Shown here: piece by piece, positions 15,514-64,000 of the stretch
Numbering within the stretch: the first letter of the stretch is position 1
Layout: every line of letters begins with the position of its first letter
Assembly (NCBI GenBank): GCA_038363925.1
Contig: JAQQWL010000015.1
Coordinates: 496,001-560,000, forward strand
Length of the DNA stretch: 64,000 nucleotides
DNA from: Apiospora phragmitis
Taxonomy: Eukaryota; Ascomycota; Sordariomycetes; Amphisphaeriales; Apiosporaceae
Direction of reading: 5' to 3'
Program-made: the position numbers and the translations under genes
Notes under the pieces: generated by a model
The model's input: only the letters and a program-made list of their open reading frames with translations
Databases searched by the model: none
What the model was told of the DNA's origin: nothing

Positions 15514-16672
15514 CTAGCACTGGGCTGGGCAATGATGTGCTAGTGGTGGGGCCCAACACTGCCCATTCTTCCCGTTGACTCCGTTCGGTCCGTTGACTCG
15601 GACCTGTCCATTGAGCAAGGATTTCCCAAACAACTCGCGCAGGCGATACCGCGGCGACGACGTATGAAAGTGGGTGATGCCACGCGCGTAGGCCTCGAAA
15701 TTAGCTTGATACTCCGGGGCGTCGGCCAGCGTGGCCCTGACGCGGTGATAGACGGCGATGCCCTCGTCCGCGAGGGCGCGCTGGGCCGTGATAACGTCGA
15801 CGCCGTCCTTCTCGGCGCGCATGTCGATGTAGTTGCCCTGCTCGCCGGCCAGCAGCTCCTTGTAGAAGGAGATGACGTCGTTGACGATGTTGGTGAAGAC
15901 GATGACGTCGGGCACGGCCTGCACGTAGCGGCCGAAGCCCTCGGCGTGCTTGCGGGCCCGGTCCGAGGGCCGCGCCAGGGCCAGCAGCGCGTACATGGGC
16001 GACAGGCCCGTCTTGAAGCGCAGCCAGTCCGGGAAGCGGTCGGCCTGGGCATGGACCGCGGCGTCCCGCGTCGCGTGCTCGATGCCGATGCCGTTGACAA
16101 AGTCGTAGCAGGCCACGAGGATCATGTTGGCGACGAGCGGGTCGAAGTGGTCCCAGAGCTGCGGCGCGAGCTCGCGCACGAACCAGTCGAGCAGGGGGTC
16201 GCCGAAGGGCCGGCCCGTGGCCAGGTTGCGCTGCAAGTCACGGATCACGCCGGGCTTGTGCTCGAGGATGTCCTCGGCGTGGAAGAACATGAGGGTCAGC
16301 AGGGCGTACACGACCTGGTACTCGAACCCCTGCGCGTGGGCGAAGTCGGCCGCCACGAAGCACGAGTAGTCAAGCTGGTTCTTGGCGGTGATGGCGCCCA
16401 TGTGGTCGCGGAGGCTGCTCGACGCCAGCCGCGACACGACCTCGGTCCGCAGCTTGTCGATGCTCGTCAACGTCAGGGCATCCGCATCTATGCTTCGGCC
16501 CGCGTCAACCCATGTACAAAGTACGACAGGGTGTCACGGATCCTGGCATTATCGGCCTGTATATTCCCCCGTTAGCAAACCTGAGCAGGAAGGTTAGGTT
16601 TTTCCGTTGGGAAAGAACAAGGAATTCAGCGTCATGTCGGGAAAGCCCTACCTCGCACAGTTTCGATGCCAT
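15514..16672 (-). CDS. Tri5-type (class I) terpene synthase, frame broken near the start
   Basis: The main frame (16470-15514) encodes the alpha-helical catalytic domain. The metal-binding NSE motif is NDVISFYKE, followed by GNYIDMRAEKDG. A late RY pair (SSPRYRL) and a Gly/Asn-rich tail follow. The usual Asp-rich motif position reads FFHAEDILEH, so one expected Asp is Glu. A short first exon (16672-16652) and a 95-nt intron (GTAGGG...ACAG) lead into an exon from 16556. That exon stops at TAG (16490-16488) one base out of frame with the main body. The catalytic frame has no ATG of its own at the right place, so this is either a one-base indel or a pseudogene. Family members cyclise farnesyl diphosphate; the product cannot be predicted. 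No other pathway gene is adjacent. Confidence 0.8.
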
Positions 16673-21798: not shown

Positions 21799-23131
21799 AT
21801 GACCGCCAGAGATAACACCAGCATGGCGGCTGACCCTATAATGCCTGAGGGGCTGGGTAAGACGCTGATGGTGGTGACTATCGTGATGACCATAGTGTCC
21901 AGCATTGTTGTCGCTGTGCGGCTCTACGTGCGCAAGTTATACGATTCTTTCGCCGTGGACGATTGGATGATGCTTGCTGGCTGGGTGAGTAAACCCCTTT
22001 CATAATTAAGTTATTCCGTATTATTCGTGTTCTCAAGACTAACTCCCACGGGCACAGATTCTCAACATCGCCCACAATGCCTCGGTTATTGTCCTCGCCA
22101 CCTACGGAATGGGAGCGCACGACTACGAGCTCACGGCCGGGATGGGGCATAAGATCTCGATGTGGACCATCATCTGGCAGTTCATCTACGTGCTGGACGG
22201 GGCCCTGATCAAGTCGAGTATCGTCGTGACGATGCTGCGGCTCGCCAACAGGAGGGAGTACAAGATCATCCTCTGGACGCTGTTCGGCCTGACCTGGGCC
22301 ACCTGGCAGATCTCGTGGCCCGTCGCCATCTTCCAGTGCAAGCCCGTGTCGGCCGCGTGGACGGGCGTCGGCGACTGCAAGTCGGGCCAGAAGGTGATCC
22401 TACAGGTCTCGTACTTCGTCTCGGCCGTCAACATCTTCACCGACCTCGCGACCGCGCTGACGCCGATCCTGCTGCTGCGCCACCTGCAGATGCCGGCCCG
22501 GACCAAGTACCTGACCATGGCCATCCTGTCGCTCGGTGTCTTTGCGTCCGTCGCCACCACCATCCGCATCAGCTACACCTGGGCCTACACGGCCAAGTCG
22601 GAGCAGATCTACAACATCGGCAAGATCGTGCTGCTGACCGTGCTCGAGTGTGACCTCGGCCTCATCGCGGGATCGCTGCCCATGCTGCGCCGCCTCTTCC
22701 CCAGCCTCAACGGGTCCCAGGCCAAGTCGACCAACAACGTCAACTCGGCGATCCCGGGGCGCTCGGGCGACGTCACGCTCGTCACCATCGGCGGCGGGCG
22801 CCGGGGCAAGGGCTACAAGCTGGAGAAGTCGCAGCACCGGAGCAACCTCAGCGCGACCGACGGGCACTTCCACGACCAAAGGGTGGCCGAGAATAATGGC
22901 AACGGCGACAACACGACGGACACGACGGACAACTCGGTCGACAATGACGGCCAGGAGTCCACCCGCCGCATGATCCACGTCACCCGCGAGGTCGAGCAGA
23001 GCAGCATCACGGAGGGCGGTTCCGACGGCGTCGAGCGCGCCGAACAGAGCCATCAAAGCCATATCGACTATCCCGACAACCGCTTCCAGCATGCCGCGGG
23101 CGCCGGCCGTGGCAGCCCTAGGGCATTCTGA
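21799..23131 (+). CDS. Rhodopsin-domain integral membrane protein (PTH11-like fungal family)
   Basis: Two exons, 21799-21984 and 22058-23131, give 419 residues. The 73-nt intron has a GTGAGT donor, a CTAAC branch site and a CACAG acceptor. Hydrophobic helices begin with MVVTIVMTIVSSIVVAVRLY, then the conserved RKLYDSFAVDDWMMLAGW, and continue through seven predicted spans up to CDLGLIAGSLPMLRRLFP. This is the hallmark of the fungal rhodopsin domain that replaced the older DUF label. The C-terminal 130 residues are hydrophilic, Gly/Asn/Thr-rich and likely cytosolic and disordered. Some relatives such as PTH11 act in surface sensing; the ligand here is unknown. An exceptionally GC-rich reading frame produces long shadow ORFs on the other strand. 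Confidence 0.9.
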
Positions 23132-24063: not shown

Positions 24064-26605
24064 AGCATTATGTTAGACTAATTTGATTATCTAATCACTT
24101 TCTTTACTTCGCCGACAACTTCCATCTACCAGAGCCTGGATTTCTACACACGTTCCAAACAATCCTTCTCATAATTGGGATCTCATTGTTTATGTCATCC
24201 AATCATGCCACACCGAATAATGATTATCTCCTCTGGCTGAATGCGTTCTTCAATTAGGGGTTTTGGTAGAGAAAGTCTGCGAGCGTGGTGCCCATCCAAA
24301 GTATGTTATGTATCGGTTGAGCTCAAAGCCAACAGCATCCTCCTCAAGGCGTCGTATGGACCTTGGGTCTGGCTCAAACCTGTTCAGGTTGATTGGATTG
24401 TTTAGGTCTGTGACTAAAAGAATGCATTCTAGATATCCCACATGTCTACAGTATTTCCTTGGACATAGTGAGTACCGAGTTCGTTCAAATGCAGCCAAAG
24501 CAACTGGATGAATAATTTTCAGGCTTCTCGTTTAGTGTTAGATTCATTCCAATATAACGTAACACTAATTTCTGTTTCTAGTAACTGCCGTATAACCGCT
24601 GTGACCTCGTTTGTTTATAAACATGACAAAGGACCAAGTTCCCCCATGGACTGAGAGCTGGCATGAAGCAGCTTCACAGACCGTCCAGCCTGATACTGGG
24701 TCTGGAAGGCAACCCTCAAGTAAGTATGCATATTTCTGCCTATCTTCTAGGGTACCCATAAAAATTCGATGCGGGTAATGTGATCGGTATGTGAGATTCT
24801 TGTGATCTGCTTTCTATTCTACGACTCCCTCGCCCCGCCCCACATGTCCTACAGGTGTGTTTTCTTAAACACCTTTTCAACTGCAGAATCTTTTCCTCCC
24901 CTTTCCTTCTTCATCCATCTTCCTCTCTCCCCCACTTCTTCATGCATCTTCTTCCTCCATATAGTAACCTGTGGAGGGTCATCGAGAGACTATGGGTGCA
25001 AGCTGTTTGATTTTATCAAGATCCAGACCTCTGATGGGGTGGCGCAATGCGTACGTACTTACCTGAGGGACCTAGATACCGACCAGATACCTTCATAGGG
25101 AATGGAAAGTAGGCCATCTCATTGTCTCTAGCAAAGAAACATTAGTTGATTGATCGTGGGAATACATTTCATTGCTATATTCAAGGTTGTCAAAAGCCAA
25201 ACATGCAATTATATTGTTTTGAACGGCTGTAACGAATAGTCATACGTACACACCTGTCTCACCTGTTTGGTTTCAAGACAATAACTTGATCTTTGCAATG
25301 TACTACCTGCTCCTGTTGGGACTGCAAGCCACAATCGTTGTAACAAATGCTGTAGACACTGAAGATCTTGAAATCTCCATCAGGGCTCTTATTTCGATTG
25401 GCACTCCCAGCAATTCCCACAGAGAGGACGCGATTGCATAATAGCCATGGAATAACACACCCAAGACCGCGTCCCGTGCCCGGAAGACTGACCCGATCTA
25501 CTTCCTTGAAGTCTCTGATGTCACAGATGTCGCTAATCACCATTGCCAGAAATTTAGAGCAATAGGATGATGGGCCGAGATATACCGGTCGACATCTGGT
25601 GATTATGTATGAGGGGGCGTGACCTACTGGCAATCGTCTATGTGTAAGCGCTCACGGGTGTCTGCACTGCTCTTGACCATTAATACATTATCCTTGACTG
25701 TGAGACCATATTCCGCTGGTTTGCTCTCCAGTCCTGCCCTTGTGAGCTTCTGTTGCTCTTGTGGGTTGTCGATGTCAACCAGTTTGGCGGCGTTGGTCAG
25801 GTTGACTCCAGCTGCGAGCAGCTGCTTGACAATTCACCAGTTGTCCGACATCCCCTCAGTTGGTCTGCCCCATATCCTTTCTCAATTGGGTCAACTAGTG
25901 TCTGGCCAGGGTTTCCCGCATACCCGGGTCAAGCACTTTAGCGTAGTGGTTGTATATGTTCGTTGGGCCACCCCACGCCTTTGTTCCTGGATTTAGTCAG
26001 TCTATGAGTGTAGTGCCAGGTCTGCGGCTTTTGACAATGAAAGATCGCGTTGGTCAAGGAAGTGGGGCTAAGTCCCGGCATTTTTCGGAGATCTTTCGGC
26101 TATATCCGCTGGTTTCCCTGTCGCGGTCCGGATGCGCCTGAGAAAGCCGTACAAGCTAAGCTGTAGCTCAGAAACAGCTGGCACTCGATCAAAGACTGGC
26201 CTCTGGACTATGTCTCGTCTTGCTGTCAGCCAAACGTGCTCGAGGTGGCTCAAATAAGTGGATATAGCACCATGCGGCTTACACGCTATGCCGACCGCCC
26301 ACAAAGCTAACCTTGTGCTTGTGCGTCCAACTGTCCAGTCAAGCAACGCATCCCTGCGCCACGACCCCATTACCCCACGCTGTCACGAGAGAGACCATTC
26401 CGTAGATAGCCATTAACCCCCCCAAAACAGCCAGCCCTTCCGTCCGTCAGTAGTCCTAACACCCAGCTCCATTCACACACATGTACTGTACCTCCAGCCA
26501 AAGCCAGGCCAGCGTACTGTACTCCGCCTCACCCCACCCCGCCCTCCAATATATTGCCACACAACCGCCGAGTCTTTCAACAATCACGGCCTTGTGGTCT
26601 AGTGG

Positions 26606-26664
26606 GTAAGTTACCATCGCAACTATTCACTTATTCCGTGCAATGCAGCTAACAGTGCTTCGAG
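26606..26664 (+). other. Spliceosomal-intron-like insertion in the tRNA D loop
   Basis: The 59-nt insertion lies after the conserved GG of the D loop (positions 18-19). It begins GTAAGT, has GCTAAC at 26648-26653 and ends CGAG, followed by G. Donor, branch site, acceptor spacing (about 11 nt) and total length all match fungal nuclear mRNA introns. Removal gives D-loop sequence AGTGG+GATGATTC, against AGTGG-TATGATTC in ordinary tRNA-Pro. Confidence 0.75.
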
Positions 26665-26682
26665 GATGATTCGTCCTTCGGG

Positions 26683-26707
26683 ATACACCTTCGGTTTGAC
26701 ACTGAAA
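26683..26707 (+). other. Canonical 37/38 tRNA intron (25 nt)
   Basis: Lies directly after G37 of the anticodon loop and before T38, the only position used by the standard eukaryotic tRNA-splicing endonuclease. Confidence 0.85.
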
Positions 26708-26743
26708 TGGACGAGGCCCCGGGTTCGAATCCCGGCAAGGCCC

Positions 26744-27289
26744 AGAGCCCTGCCTCAGCTCACATATTATCACATATCGTTTTGCAGATATCGCGAAGTG
26801 CCATTTTGTGCAGGTGCTCACGGCTTAGTCAGGGCGAGCTTAAAAAGGACGCTAGCACGGCCGCTGCGGTAGACCGTGCGCTCACTCTAAATCGAGGTTA
26901 TGCTATCAATTCCAGGGCACGGCTTGCAACCTCTCTTTTTCTTTGGCTTAAGTAATTAACCTAGGTGCTGCCGATGACTGATTGTATGGCTGGCTCACTG
27001 CTTGGCACGCACATGTTGCAATTCATTTCTCTCGTCCAGCTTGGCTTGCATTGGATTAGGTATTTTTGGGGATCGCATCTGTCTTTTCACGTTCATTACT
27101 TGGTGTTATTGTGACTTGCGATGATTCATGATTGCATTGCTGCGTGAGGAAACAGCATGCTGCACGAATCCAGTTTGCATCTGTACTGGCGGCGCAAACA
27201 AACAACCTGAAGGTCATTCATTGCGAACAGTCTCGCCCAAAGGGGATGGTATTGCCAGTCCACAACGAACCATCTTACCCAATGAGAAG
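26744..27289. other. Intergenic, no gene seen
   Basis: 3' flank of the tRNA and of gene X. Only the T4 tract is notable. Confidence 0.5.
26780..26783 (+). terminator. Possible Pol III terminator (T4)
   Basis: The first TTTT run downstream of the tRNA, about 36 nt past its 3' end. Short but usable for RNA polymerase III. Confidence 0.5.
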
Positions 27290-61940: not shown

Positions 61941-64000
61941 TTATTGATCGTTCGCCCGTACCAGAGTCATTTCCCCTTCTGTGTTTTCTAAATCCTCCTC
62001 TTTTAACTTCAGCAGTTCTGCAACGCCTATGTCCCTCTCATCTGTAAACAGGGCACGTACGACGAAGTCGAGAACAGCAACGAGTCTCTTCACCTCTTTA
62101 TCCGTAACCACCGAATCGGCAAAGTACACCATGACGTCCATACTCTGAAGCTCCTTGCCCCGCATTATCGGGGATATGATGACGATGAAAGGCATCCCAT
62201 TGTCCCAGAACAGGGGCTGAGGCCTCCTTTCCAGACCAATCCCGCCAGCCGGCGGCGCGGCGTACGGATCTACCGCCTGCACATTGACTAGCGGGGCCAC
62301 GGCACAGGCTGCCTGTGCTTCCGGATGCAACTTTGCCACGTCTTTGAAGCTGAATTGCTCGTAGGGTGCAAAGCTTAGGAGCTGCTCCCGCACGTGGGCG
62401 ATGAAGCTCGTCGAGGTGGATGTCCCTTCAGTGTGCCGCAAGCGTAGCGGCAAGTTGTTAACCGTAGGACCGAGCAGATCCTCGATTCCTGGGACCGAGG
62501 CGATGGTTCGACCTGTAGAGACTACGCGCAAGATAGTATCGGCGGTTCGAAGTTGCTCGTGGAAGGCGAGTCCGAGAGCCGCATATGCCAGCTCGGCAGG
62601 TGTTTTATACGCTCGTACCCCGGCCACGCTCTGGGGCAATTTGATACTGTGCCGCAAGAAAGTGTTGGACGAAAGTACCTGTGCTGTCTCCTTAGCAAAT
62701 GCACGCGTTGATACCCCAAGCAGCGCGTCGCGCCAGAACGCCGAGGCATCGGTATGCCCTCGTTGATCAAGGCTCGCCTTCATGAAGTGCCGGAAGTCCA
62801 CTTTCTGCTCCTGCTCAGCCGCGTTTCCATCCGTTCCGTCGGACATGCGCGTATACTCGCGGTCGAGCAACGCGAATAGCTTGTTCAGACTCCAGGCGTC
62901 GTATACGATATGATGCAGCGTCACGACCAGCCACTTCCCGTTCACCACGTTCGCGTGGGTCAGCGCTTCTCCGGAGCCCAATGTTCGCCCCTGATCGGCT
63001 GTAAGGAAGGCTTCGAAGTCCGCGGGTTGGCACTCAGCGCGGACAACCTCGCCAGGGGACCGCAAAACAACCTGCAGAAGTCCGTCCTCAATAGACACTA
63101 CACGGGTGCGCAATATGTCGTGGCTCGAGACAATGCGGCTCCAGGCGCGACCGAGACGGTCCACGTCGACGTTTTCGGGTATCTTGAAAACGTTCTGCAT
63201 CCACAGGGCGCCCGGCCGCACGAGACCGTAGTGGAATAAATCGAGCTGCGTCGGTGTTACGGGATAGGCGTCGACCACCTCTTCCACCCCAACCCCGCAC
63301 CCTCCTGCAGCTTTTGCTTTCAACGAGTCTATGCTCGAGCCAGCCGGTAATCCTGGCAGCAGGGAGAAGGCAGGGATCTCTGCCGGTGACTTACCCTGGA
63401 GATCTGGCGTTCTGCCTTCAACCAATGCTGCCAGGTCACCCAGCTGCGGGCATTTGTAAATGTCTTGCACCGCCAGTGAGACGTTGATGGTACGGGCGAG
63501 GGAGGCTAGCTTAATGGCCACGATCGAGTCTCCGCCGCACTCGAAGAAGTCAGCCTCGACGCCAAAGTCTTCCGGCCCAATGTTCATCACGGTGGACCAC
63601 AAGTTATGCAGAAGCTTCTCCATCTTGGTTCGTGGTGCTTGCACCTCGCGTCGCGTCGTCAAGGCGAAGCGAGCCAGGCCACCATATCCCATGTTAGCCA
63701 CAAGGGCACGGAGGCGCTTCCTGTCTGTCTTGGCCGACGCGTTAAGTGGCATGCTTGTCAGCGCCACGAAGAAGCTGGGAACTGTGAACGCCGGCAGGAC
63801 CAAGGCGAGCTTGCCCGGAGACCTTCGGTACTCTCAATGAAGCTCTGGAGAGCCTCTTCGTCCTCGACAACAGCCACTTCGTTGCGGTTCTGGGGACGAC
63901 CAAATGATGTCGTGCTCACAAACGCCACCAGACGCGATTCCGACCTGTCCGAGGGGTTCTCGATCATCTCGACGGCTACTTCCAGGCCGACCTGGCTCAG
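61941..64000 (-). CDS. Non-ribosomal peptide synthetase, 3' end (A-T-C)
   Basis: The gene enters from the right edge, so the N-terminus is outside. Domains in order: the end of an adenylation domain, with the late motif VALTSMPLNASAKTDRKRL (A10, Lys-bearing motif altered from NGKVDR); a carrier domain with DFFECGGDSIVAIKLA (phosphopantetheine Ser near 63,530); and a condensation domain starting VVDAYPVTPTQ with active-site TLHHIVYDAWSL near 62,910. It ends 16 residues after a Glu-rich stretch, so the C domain is terminal, as in fungal NRPSs that release cyclic products. Around 63,830-63,840 the upstream frame (to 63,967 and the edge) and the downstream frame differ by one base, and no intron fits. 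Product unknown. Confidence 0.88.

Follow-up and report, generated by a model that had tools for sequence, protein, structure and literature searches.

The gene described here codes for a transfer RNA (tRNA) for proline with the anticodon CGG, tRNA-Pro(CGG), and occupies positions 26588-26743 on the plus strand of a 64-kb stretch of DNA from Apiospora phragmitis (Sordariomycetes, Amphisphaeriales). This whole stretch is called the window below; the genome searched comprises 52.67 Mb in 19 contigs, cited by number (C1 to C19). The gene carries two inserts, one of 59 nucleotides (nt) in the D loop and one of 25 nt at position 37/38, and reads GGCCTTG-TG-GTC-TAGTGG[59-nt insert]GAT-GAT-T-CGTCC-TTCGGG[25-nt insert]T-GGACG-AGGCC-CCGGG-TTCGAAT-CCCGG-CAAGGCC-C. 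When both inserts are taken out 72 nt remain, which ARAGORN names tRNA-Pro(CGG). This confirms the two-insert tRNA-Pro(CGG) that a preliminary description of the sequence had proposed.

All elements of the gene lie on the plus strand. The 5' exon (26588-26605) holds tRNA positions 1-19, i.e. the 5' strands of the acceptor and D stems and GG18-19. It ends in an intact A box for RNA polymerase III (Pol III), TGGTCTAGTGG (26595-26605; C15:522595-522605, from an exact A-box search), directly 5' of the D-loop insert. This insert, a spliceosomal-type intron at 19/20 (26606-26664), has the form GTAAGT...GCTAAC...AG, and the same length, letters and place after GG18-19 had been given in the preliminary description. 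Its branch-site motif CTAAC lies at 26649-26653, and from the branch A (26652) to the last base of the insert the distance is 12 nt. The middle exon (26665-26682) supplies the rest of the D loop, the 3' strand of the D stem, the 5' strand of the anticodon stem, the anticodon CGG and G37, and is followed by a canonical 25-nt tRNA intron at 37/38, the Sen-type position (26683-26707). The 3' exon (26708-26743) contains position 38, the 3' strand of the anticodon stem, the variable loop, the T arm, the 3' strand of the acceptor stem and C73. Within it lies the B box GGTTCGAATCC (26722-26732; match start C15:522722, from a T-arm pattern search), also intact, and the earlier claim that both Pol III boxes survive holds. 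A TATA-like element, CAATATATTG, is found upstream at 26547-26556, and the closest downstream run of four T (TTTT, 26780-26783), 36 bases past the gene, would be a weak Pol III terminator.

Annotation tools do not recover this structure. In the whole window ARAGORN run without introns found no tRNA gene, and Rfam at its gathering score gave no match, hence none to a group I intron model either. With introns allowed, ARAGORN reported a tRNA-Phe(GAA) with a single 82-nt intron; by manual count only three of five anticodon-stem pairs form in that reading versus five of five in tRNA-Pro(CGG), and it was rejected. Removal of the D-loop insert only led ARAGORN to Leu(CAA). This was rejected as well: the 37/38 intron would fall before position 37, the variable loop of five bases is too short for a tRNA-Leu, and the fully joined exons give Pro(CGG). 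The genome paper of A. arundinis reports tRNA genes predicted with tRNA-scan 2.0.5 (PMC10999098), and the authors of tRNAscan-SE 2.0, in one passage, present its search for non-canonical introns as one for archaeal candidates (PMC8450103). Given this archaeal scope, interrupted fungal tRNA genes may be overlooked or misnamed, and with ARAGORN and Rfam missing or misnaming the window gene there is a practical blind spot.

Two interrupted tRNA-Pro(CGG) genes

A BLAST search of window positions 26500-26850 against the whole genome returned the query itself and one other place only, C13:1412579-1412741, referred to as copy 2. It is a tRNA-Pro(CGG) gene whose D loop is interrupted at the same site, by 52 nt, and which has a 24-nt intron at 37/38; its joined exons (72 nt) are likewise read as tRNA-Pro(CGG) by ARAGORN. 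Apart from this paralogue, the same search showed no introner-type family for the D-loop insert; the T-loop inserts described below were not searched in this way.

The exons of the two genes are identical at 71 of 72 positions (18/18 in the 5' exon, 17/18 in the middle exon, 36/36 in the 3' exon). The 37/38 introns agree in 20 of 25 aligned columns, and the D-loop inserts in 39 of 64, both splice signals included: copy 2 retains GTAAGTTAC as well as ATGCAGCTAAC, the latter followed by AG, while much of the remainder differs. Upstream, 42 of 67 columns match over 60 bases, and alignment of both genes shows the TATA-like element with the same letters in copy 2. Over the 60 bases downstream the match is 35 of 73 columns, which is the level of random pairs (46 +/- 5%). 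As far as these alignments tell, exons and splice signals have been maintained, and drift has affected much of the insert as well as the downstream flank. The drift of the insert makes whole-gene conversion an unlikely source of the exon identity, since conversion would homogenise the insert too. The middle exon of copy 2 starts with TATGATTC, yielding the D loop TAGTGGTAT, as in six tRNA-Pro(AGG) genes; the first base after the insert in the window gene is G, unlike in copy 2.

The preliminary description had named an intact tRNA-Pro(CGG) elsewhere as part of what would mark a dead insertion. No such gene appeared in four genome searches, by BLAST, by the exact A box (28 places), by a D-stem/anticodon-loop pattern (49 places) and by a T-arm pattern (2 places), although a copy with divergent D and T arms could escape them; the only other copy found is interrupted in the same manner. 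The D-stem/anticodon-loop search gave ten TTCGGG places besides the two Pro(CGG) genes, and in none of these, all of which were read, did ARAGORN find a tRNA. Among the proline codons of four open reading frames of the window CCG is the most frequent (28 of 67), and if tRNA-Pro(TGG) is insufficient for CCG, the interrupted Pro(CGG) genes must function.

Four tRNA genes interrupted in the T loop

Four further tRNA genes of the genome are interrupted in the T loop, each at exactly 53/54: one Pro(AGG), one Pro(TGG) and two Arg(TCG). The Pro(AGG) gene (C11:5946690-5946860), which was first spotted by a search pattern free of intron grammar, carries a 54-nt insert of the form GTAAGT...GACTAAC...CAG between G53 and T54. 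The interrupted Pro(TGG) is located on C6 (C6:2113700-2114000, minus strand), and the two interrupted Arg(TCG) genes on C1 and C6. With the inserts kept ARAGORN recognised a tRNA in none of the four genes; with the inserts removed it read Pro(AGG), Arg(TCG), Arg(TCG) and Pro(TGG).

Two of these gene types have uninterrupted siblings. Five of the six tRNA-Pro(AGG) genes read straight across 53/54, and an intact tRNA-Arg(TCG) on C11 matches an interrupted Arg gene, minus its insert, at 88 of 89 positions, the lone difference lying inside the 37/38 intron. The exons of both interrupted Arg(TCG) genes are identical to those of the intact gene. By sequence, the intact Arg(TCG) and Pro(AGG) genes are exact empty sites.

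The six inserts, in genes of four isoacceptor groups, share one grammar. All measure 52-59 nt, start at the exact exon edge with GTAAGT (four genes) or GTATGT (two genes) and end in AG, and all contain CTAAC, its branch A lying 10-14 nt from the insert end. Five of the six genes have a 37/38 intron in addition. A coding intron in the window (21985-22057), within a gene of PTH11 type with a rhodopsin domain, follows the same grammar, GTGAGT...GACTAAC...CAG. As to length, the tRNA inserts are set against 44-86 nt for 30 intron-like motifs, a small set with chance matches, and with one confirmed intron of 73 nt. The motif set was drawn from fetched DNA of the A. phragmitis genome and gave 34 matches, tRNA inserts included, versus 16 in the reversed control. 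The window also holds a terpene synthase gene of TRI5 type (15514-16470, minus strand) and a fragment resembling a nonribosomal peptide synthetase, with carrier and condensation domains (61941-63803, minus strand).

As a separate observation, a tRNA gene on C4 (C4:2638350-2638520, minus strand), by eye tRNA-Tyr(GTA) and Glu(TTC) according to ARAGORN, has an anticodon-loop intron region that starts with GTAAGT and contains TTCTAATAATC...AATAG. Its insert is probably an ordinary 37/38 intron, though it resembles the spliceosomal grammar.

The inserts sit where Pol III signals are little affected. In both Pro(CGG) genes the A and B boxes are intact and the D-loop intron starts right after the A box. 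In the T-loop genes the intron separates GG from TTCGA, and the final AG of the intron, followed by TTCGAATCC or TTCGATCCC, stands in for GG before TTCGA; the resulting B box, AGTTCGAATCC or AGTTCGATCCC, is one base off the box of intact genes. Judged in this way, the placement of the inserts spares the Pol III boxes in all six genes. T runs stop Pol III. Runs of at least four T occur downstream of all six genes, the closest in copy 2 (T6, three bases past the gene), and no tRNA insert has a T run longer than two, a feature shared by six of the 30 other intron-like motifs from the fetched DNA. The short T runs in the inserts fit Pol III transcription and prove little.

Proposed spliceosomal removal and its alternatives

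Our analysis indicates that the D-loop insert of tRNA-Pro(CGG) is likely to be a U2-type spliceosomal intron, carried by a gene that Pol III transcribes, and one of at least six such introns in tRNA genes of this genome, two at 19/20 and four at 53/54. The spliceosomal interpretation of the preliminary description is the best-supported one, and inserts of the same type are now seen in Pro(AGG), Pro(TGG) and Arg(TCG) genes as well. Its weight comes from insert ends that coincide with the cuts restoring a tRNA, and from the recurrence in five other genes.

The pattern searches have to be read against their controls. GTAAGT..CTAAC..AG occurs four times in the 64-kb window, at two places, versus an expectation of 1.17, a count of four being reached in 3 of 100 shuffles. 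The genome pattern CTAACN{3,20}AGTTCRANNCC had 13 matches versus 16 in the reversed control and included the four tRNA genes with a 53/54 insert. Of its other matches, eight are unrecognisable as tRNAs and one, C5:3561548, shows a 3' part like a B box but no 5' exon that could be made out; 11 of the 13 were read, the matched letters alone being the basis for C11:3855769 and C11:7069240. When the 5' splice site was demanded instead of CTAAC (GGTANGTN{30,60}AGTTCRANYCC), eight matches were obtained versus six in the control, comprising the same four tRNA genes and four places which, all read, are not tRNAs. A pattern of A box plus GTANGT had 15 matches versus 17 reversed, and a B box followed within 250 bases only at the two Pro(CGG) genes. 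Patterns of CTAAC..AG..B box, covering insert positions from the D loop to the T stem, gave 14 and 14 matches versus 15 and 7 in the controls. These were the two Pro(CGG) genes, tRNA genes with a native CTAAC in the D arm (by eye) and others, of which four were read and showed no tRNA, the rest being judged from the matched letters. Scans of viral contigs for related interrupted genes gave 9 and 15 stretches, none near a B box.

The region around the C5 match (C5:3561480-3562480, minus strand) shows CTAACACAAAAGCCACAG, then TTCGAATCCGGGTCGTTGCA and a T7 run, and resembles a tRNA 3' part behind an intron end; no 5' exon was recognised in about 900 bases upstream.

Several points weigh against a spliceosomal origin of the inserts or against functional genes. 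The intron motif by itself is weak evidence for the window insert, and the pattern counts lie barely or not above their reversed controls (13 vs 16, 8 vs 6, 14 vs 15). With counts this near the controls, the case for the interrupted genes rests on context and not on numbers. Moreover, Pro(TGG) and both Arg(TCG) genes were found through a pattern that requires CTAAC and an AG before TTCRA, which leaves only the 5' splice site, the position and the tRNA context as independent features of these three. The Arg pair and the Pro(CGG) pair are paralogous, and the six interrupted genes amount to about four insertion events. The T-run contrast fades on closer comparison, with no run longer than two in 5 of 11 motifs of at most 62 nt and in 9 of 16 motifs of the reversed control, and the window gene has the weakest terminator, only TTTT at +37 to +40. 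At lowest energy the joined window tRNA folds with its D stem shifted (-31.1 versus -27.5 kcal/mol for the cloverleaf), and the 72-nt tRNA of copy 2 folds without a D stem (-30.4 versus -27.5 kcal/mol). Computer folds of unmodified tRNA sequences often deviate like that. Besides its T-loop intron, the Pro(TGG) gene carries two U-U mismatches in the acceptor stem and may be dead. The tRNA census of the genome is incomplete, as the genome-wide Rfam tRNA scan returned 63 places from 1715 first-look candidates and missed known genes; an intact Pro(TGG) may exist elsewhere. Finally, the review by Yoshihisa describes D- and T-arm insertions in eukaryotic tRNA genes as mostly confined to a single member of a large synonymous set, where they are taken to mark pseudogenes (PMC4090602).

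In the same Rfam scan C19 stood out by its many tRNA genes, with matches from 4180 to 220746, over more than 216 kb; it is probably a large mitochondrial genome.

The explanation that survives best besides spliceosomal removal is that of dead insertions, i.e. pseudogenes into which a chance intron-like sequence was inserted while uninterrupted tRNAs elsewhere supply the function. The five intact Pro(AGG) genes and the intact Arg(TCG) copy would suit it, as would the acceptor-stem mismatches of Pro(TGG), a tRNA of which only the interrupted gene was found in the nuclear contigs, with no search aimed at an intact one. We nevertheless regard it as improbable. Both Pro(CGG) genes are interrupted, yet their exons have remained almost the same while insert and downstream flank drifted, and the two interrupted Arg genes have the exons of the intact gene. 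Random inserts would also not all share the GTAAGT or GTATGT start, the AG end and a CTAAC at 10-14 nt from the end.

A second scenario shares the spliceosome with the reading we prefer and differs in the polymerase: the loci would be read by RNA polymerase II (Pol II) or by read-through from a neighbour, with the introns spliced from these transcripts and the Pol III tRNA output lost or minor. Spliceosomes normally act on Pol II transcripts, as is pointed out in a passage of a study on lichen fungi (PMC8527467), and the T-loop genes carry a B box with one base changed. Intact Pol III boxes in the D-loop genes and the T runs behind all six genes speak against it, and we judge it very improbable.

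A further alternative is that of ectopic Sen introns: the endonuclease would cut structured sites in both arms, as it does in archaea and seemingly in Cyanidioschyzon. The preliminary description had offered an ectopic endonuclease site as an alternative. In their favour, a review passage lists D- and T-arm introns, including 53/54, for archaea and others for red algae and nucleomorphs (PMC4090602), and five of the six genes carry a regular 37/38 intron as well. The inserts themselves do not fit. In none of the six genes does a bulge-helix-bulge form, with at most two of four central pairs in every allowed register, and in the two Pro(CGG) genes the sequence that separates the splice signals has for the most part diverged. 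We know of no role of a conserved GT..CTAAC..AG in recognition by Sen. This alternative is disfavoured and, in our assessment, highly improbable. An assembly or sequencing artefact, conceivable with a single assembly, has a negligible chance given six loci on five contigs with four clearly different insert sequences and exact tRNA ends.

The spliceosomal reading would imply the following pathway. Pol III would start from the internal A and B boxes, which the introns leave usable. The spliceosome would then recognise GTAAGT or GTATGT, CTAAC and AG, and excision, presumably in the nucleus, would restore the D or T loop. The leader and the 37/38 intron would subsequently be taken off by RNase P and by Sen, in an order that we infer. 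A passage in PMC4090602 describes Sen as probably taking its measure from the tRNA body once folded, and because inserts in the D or T arm disrupt this body, spliceosomal removal probably precedes the Sen step. The introns probably arose when a spliced intron was inserted into a tRNA or its gene, and by analogy with U6 this may have happened by reverse splicing and copying back.

Relation to known systems

Spliceosomal introns are of a known kind, and as far as we have seen it is the tRNA gene as host that is new. Among the open-access full texts listed, screened by titles and the beginnings of abstracts (subscription papers and preprints lay outside this scope), no report of spliceosomal introns in tRNA genes was found. 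Besides fission yeast, some other fungi have introns of messenger RNA (mRNA) type in U6 small nuclear RNA. The fission yeast U6 carries such an intron in a Pol III transcript, and a reverse-splicing origin is proposed in a passage of PMC10484740. The A. phragmitis genes would resemble it in combining a spliceosomal intron with a Pol III transcript. They differ in the host: U6 is the spliceosome's own RNA, with the intron near catalytic nucleotides, whereas tRNAs have an intron-removal machinery of their own.

A second parallel is provided by the nuclear ribosomal DNA of lichen fungi, where short spliceosomal introns, of 57 bp in the tested case, are spliced from RNA polymerase I (Pol I) transcripts after transfer into yeast, as a passage of PMC8527467 describes. 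Both cases represent short introns of spliceosomal type outside Pol II genes. The lichen introns lie in a Pol I ribosomal RNA without any interplay with RNase P and Sen, in contrast to a Pol III tRNA in A. phragmitis.

Non-canonical tRNA introns are reported in passages of PMC4090602 for archaea, Cyanidioschyzon merolae and nucleomorphs, with 53/54 introns in archaea, sometimes beside one at 37/38. The archaeal and C. merolae introns have a bulge-helix-bulge and are removed by the tRNA endonuclease, whereas the A. phragmitis inserts lack a bulge-helix-bulge, show spliceosomal grammar and measure 52-59 nt. The tRNA introns of the Guillardia nucleomorph are much shorter, at 3-24 nt, and their mode of splicing is given as not known in the same source (PMC4090602). 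The D- and T-loop inserts differ in site, in signals and presumably in machinery from the canonical eukaryotic 37/38 introns, which five of the six genes also have.

Splicing of tRNA and of mRNA are taught as separate eukaryotic systems, and spliceosomal tRNA introns would unite both in one precursor and would test the spliceosome's need for Pol II. They would also represent intron gains (or losses) with exact empty sites inside one genome. Our analysis suggests that the spliceosome helps to make some tRNAs of A. phragmitis. The odds are evenly balanced on the stronger proposition that the spliceosome is an obligate tRNA-processing enzyme in this fungus, acting before RNase P and Sen, with the decoding of CCG dependent on it and with repeated intron invasion that left the Pol III boxes usable.

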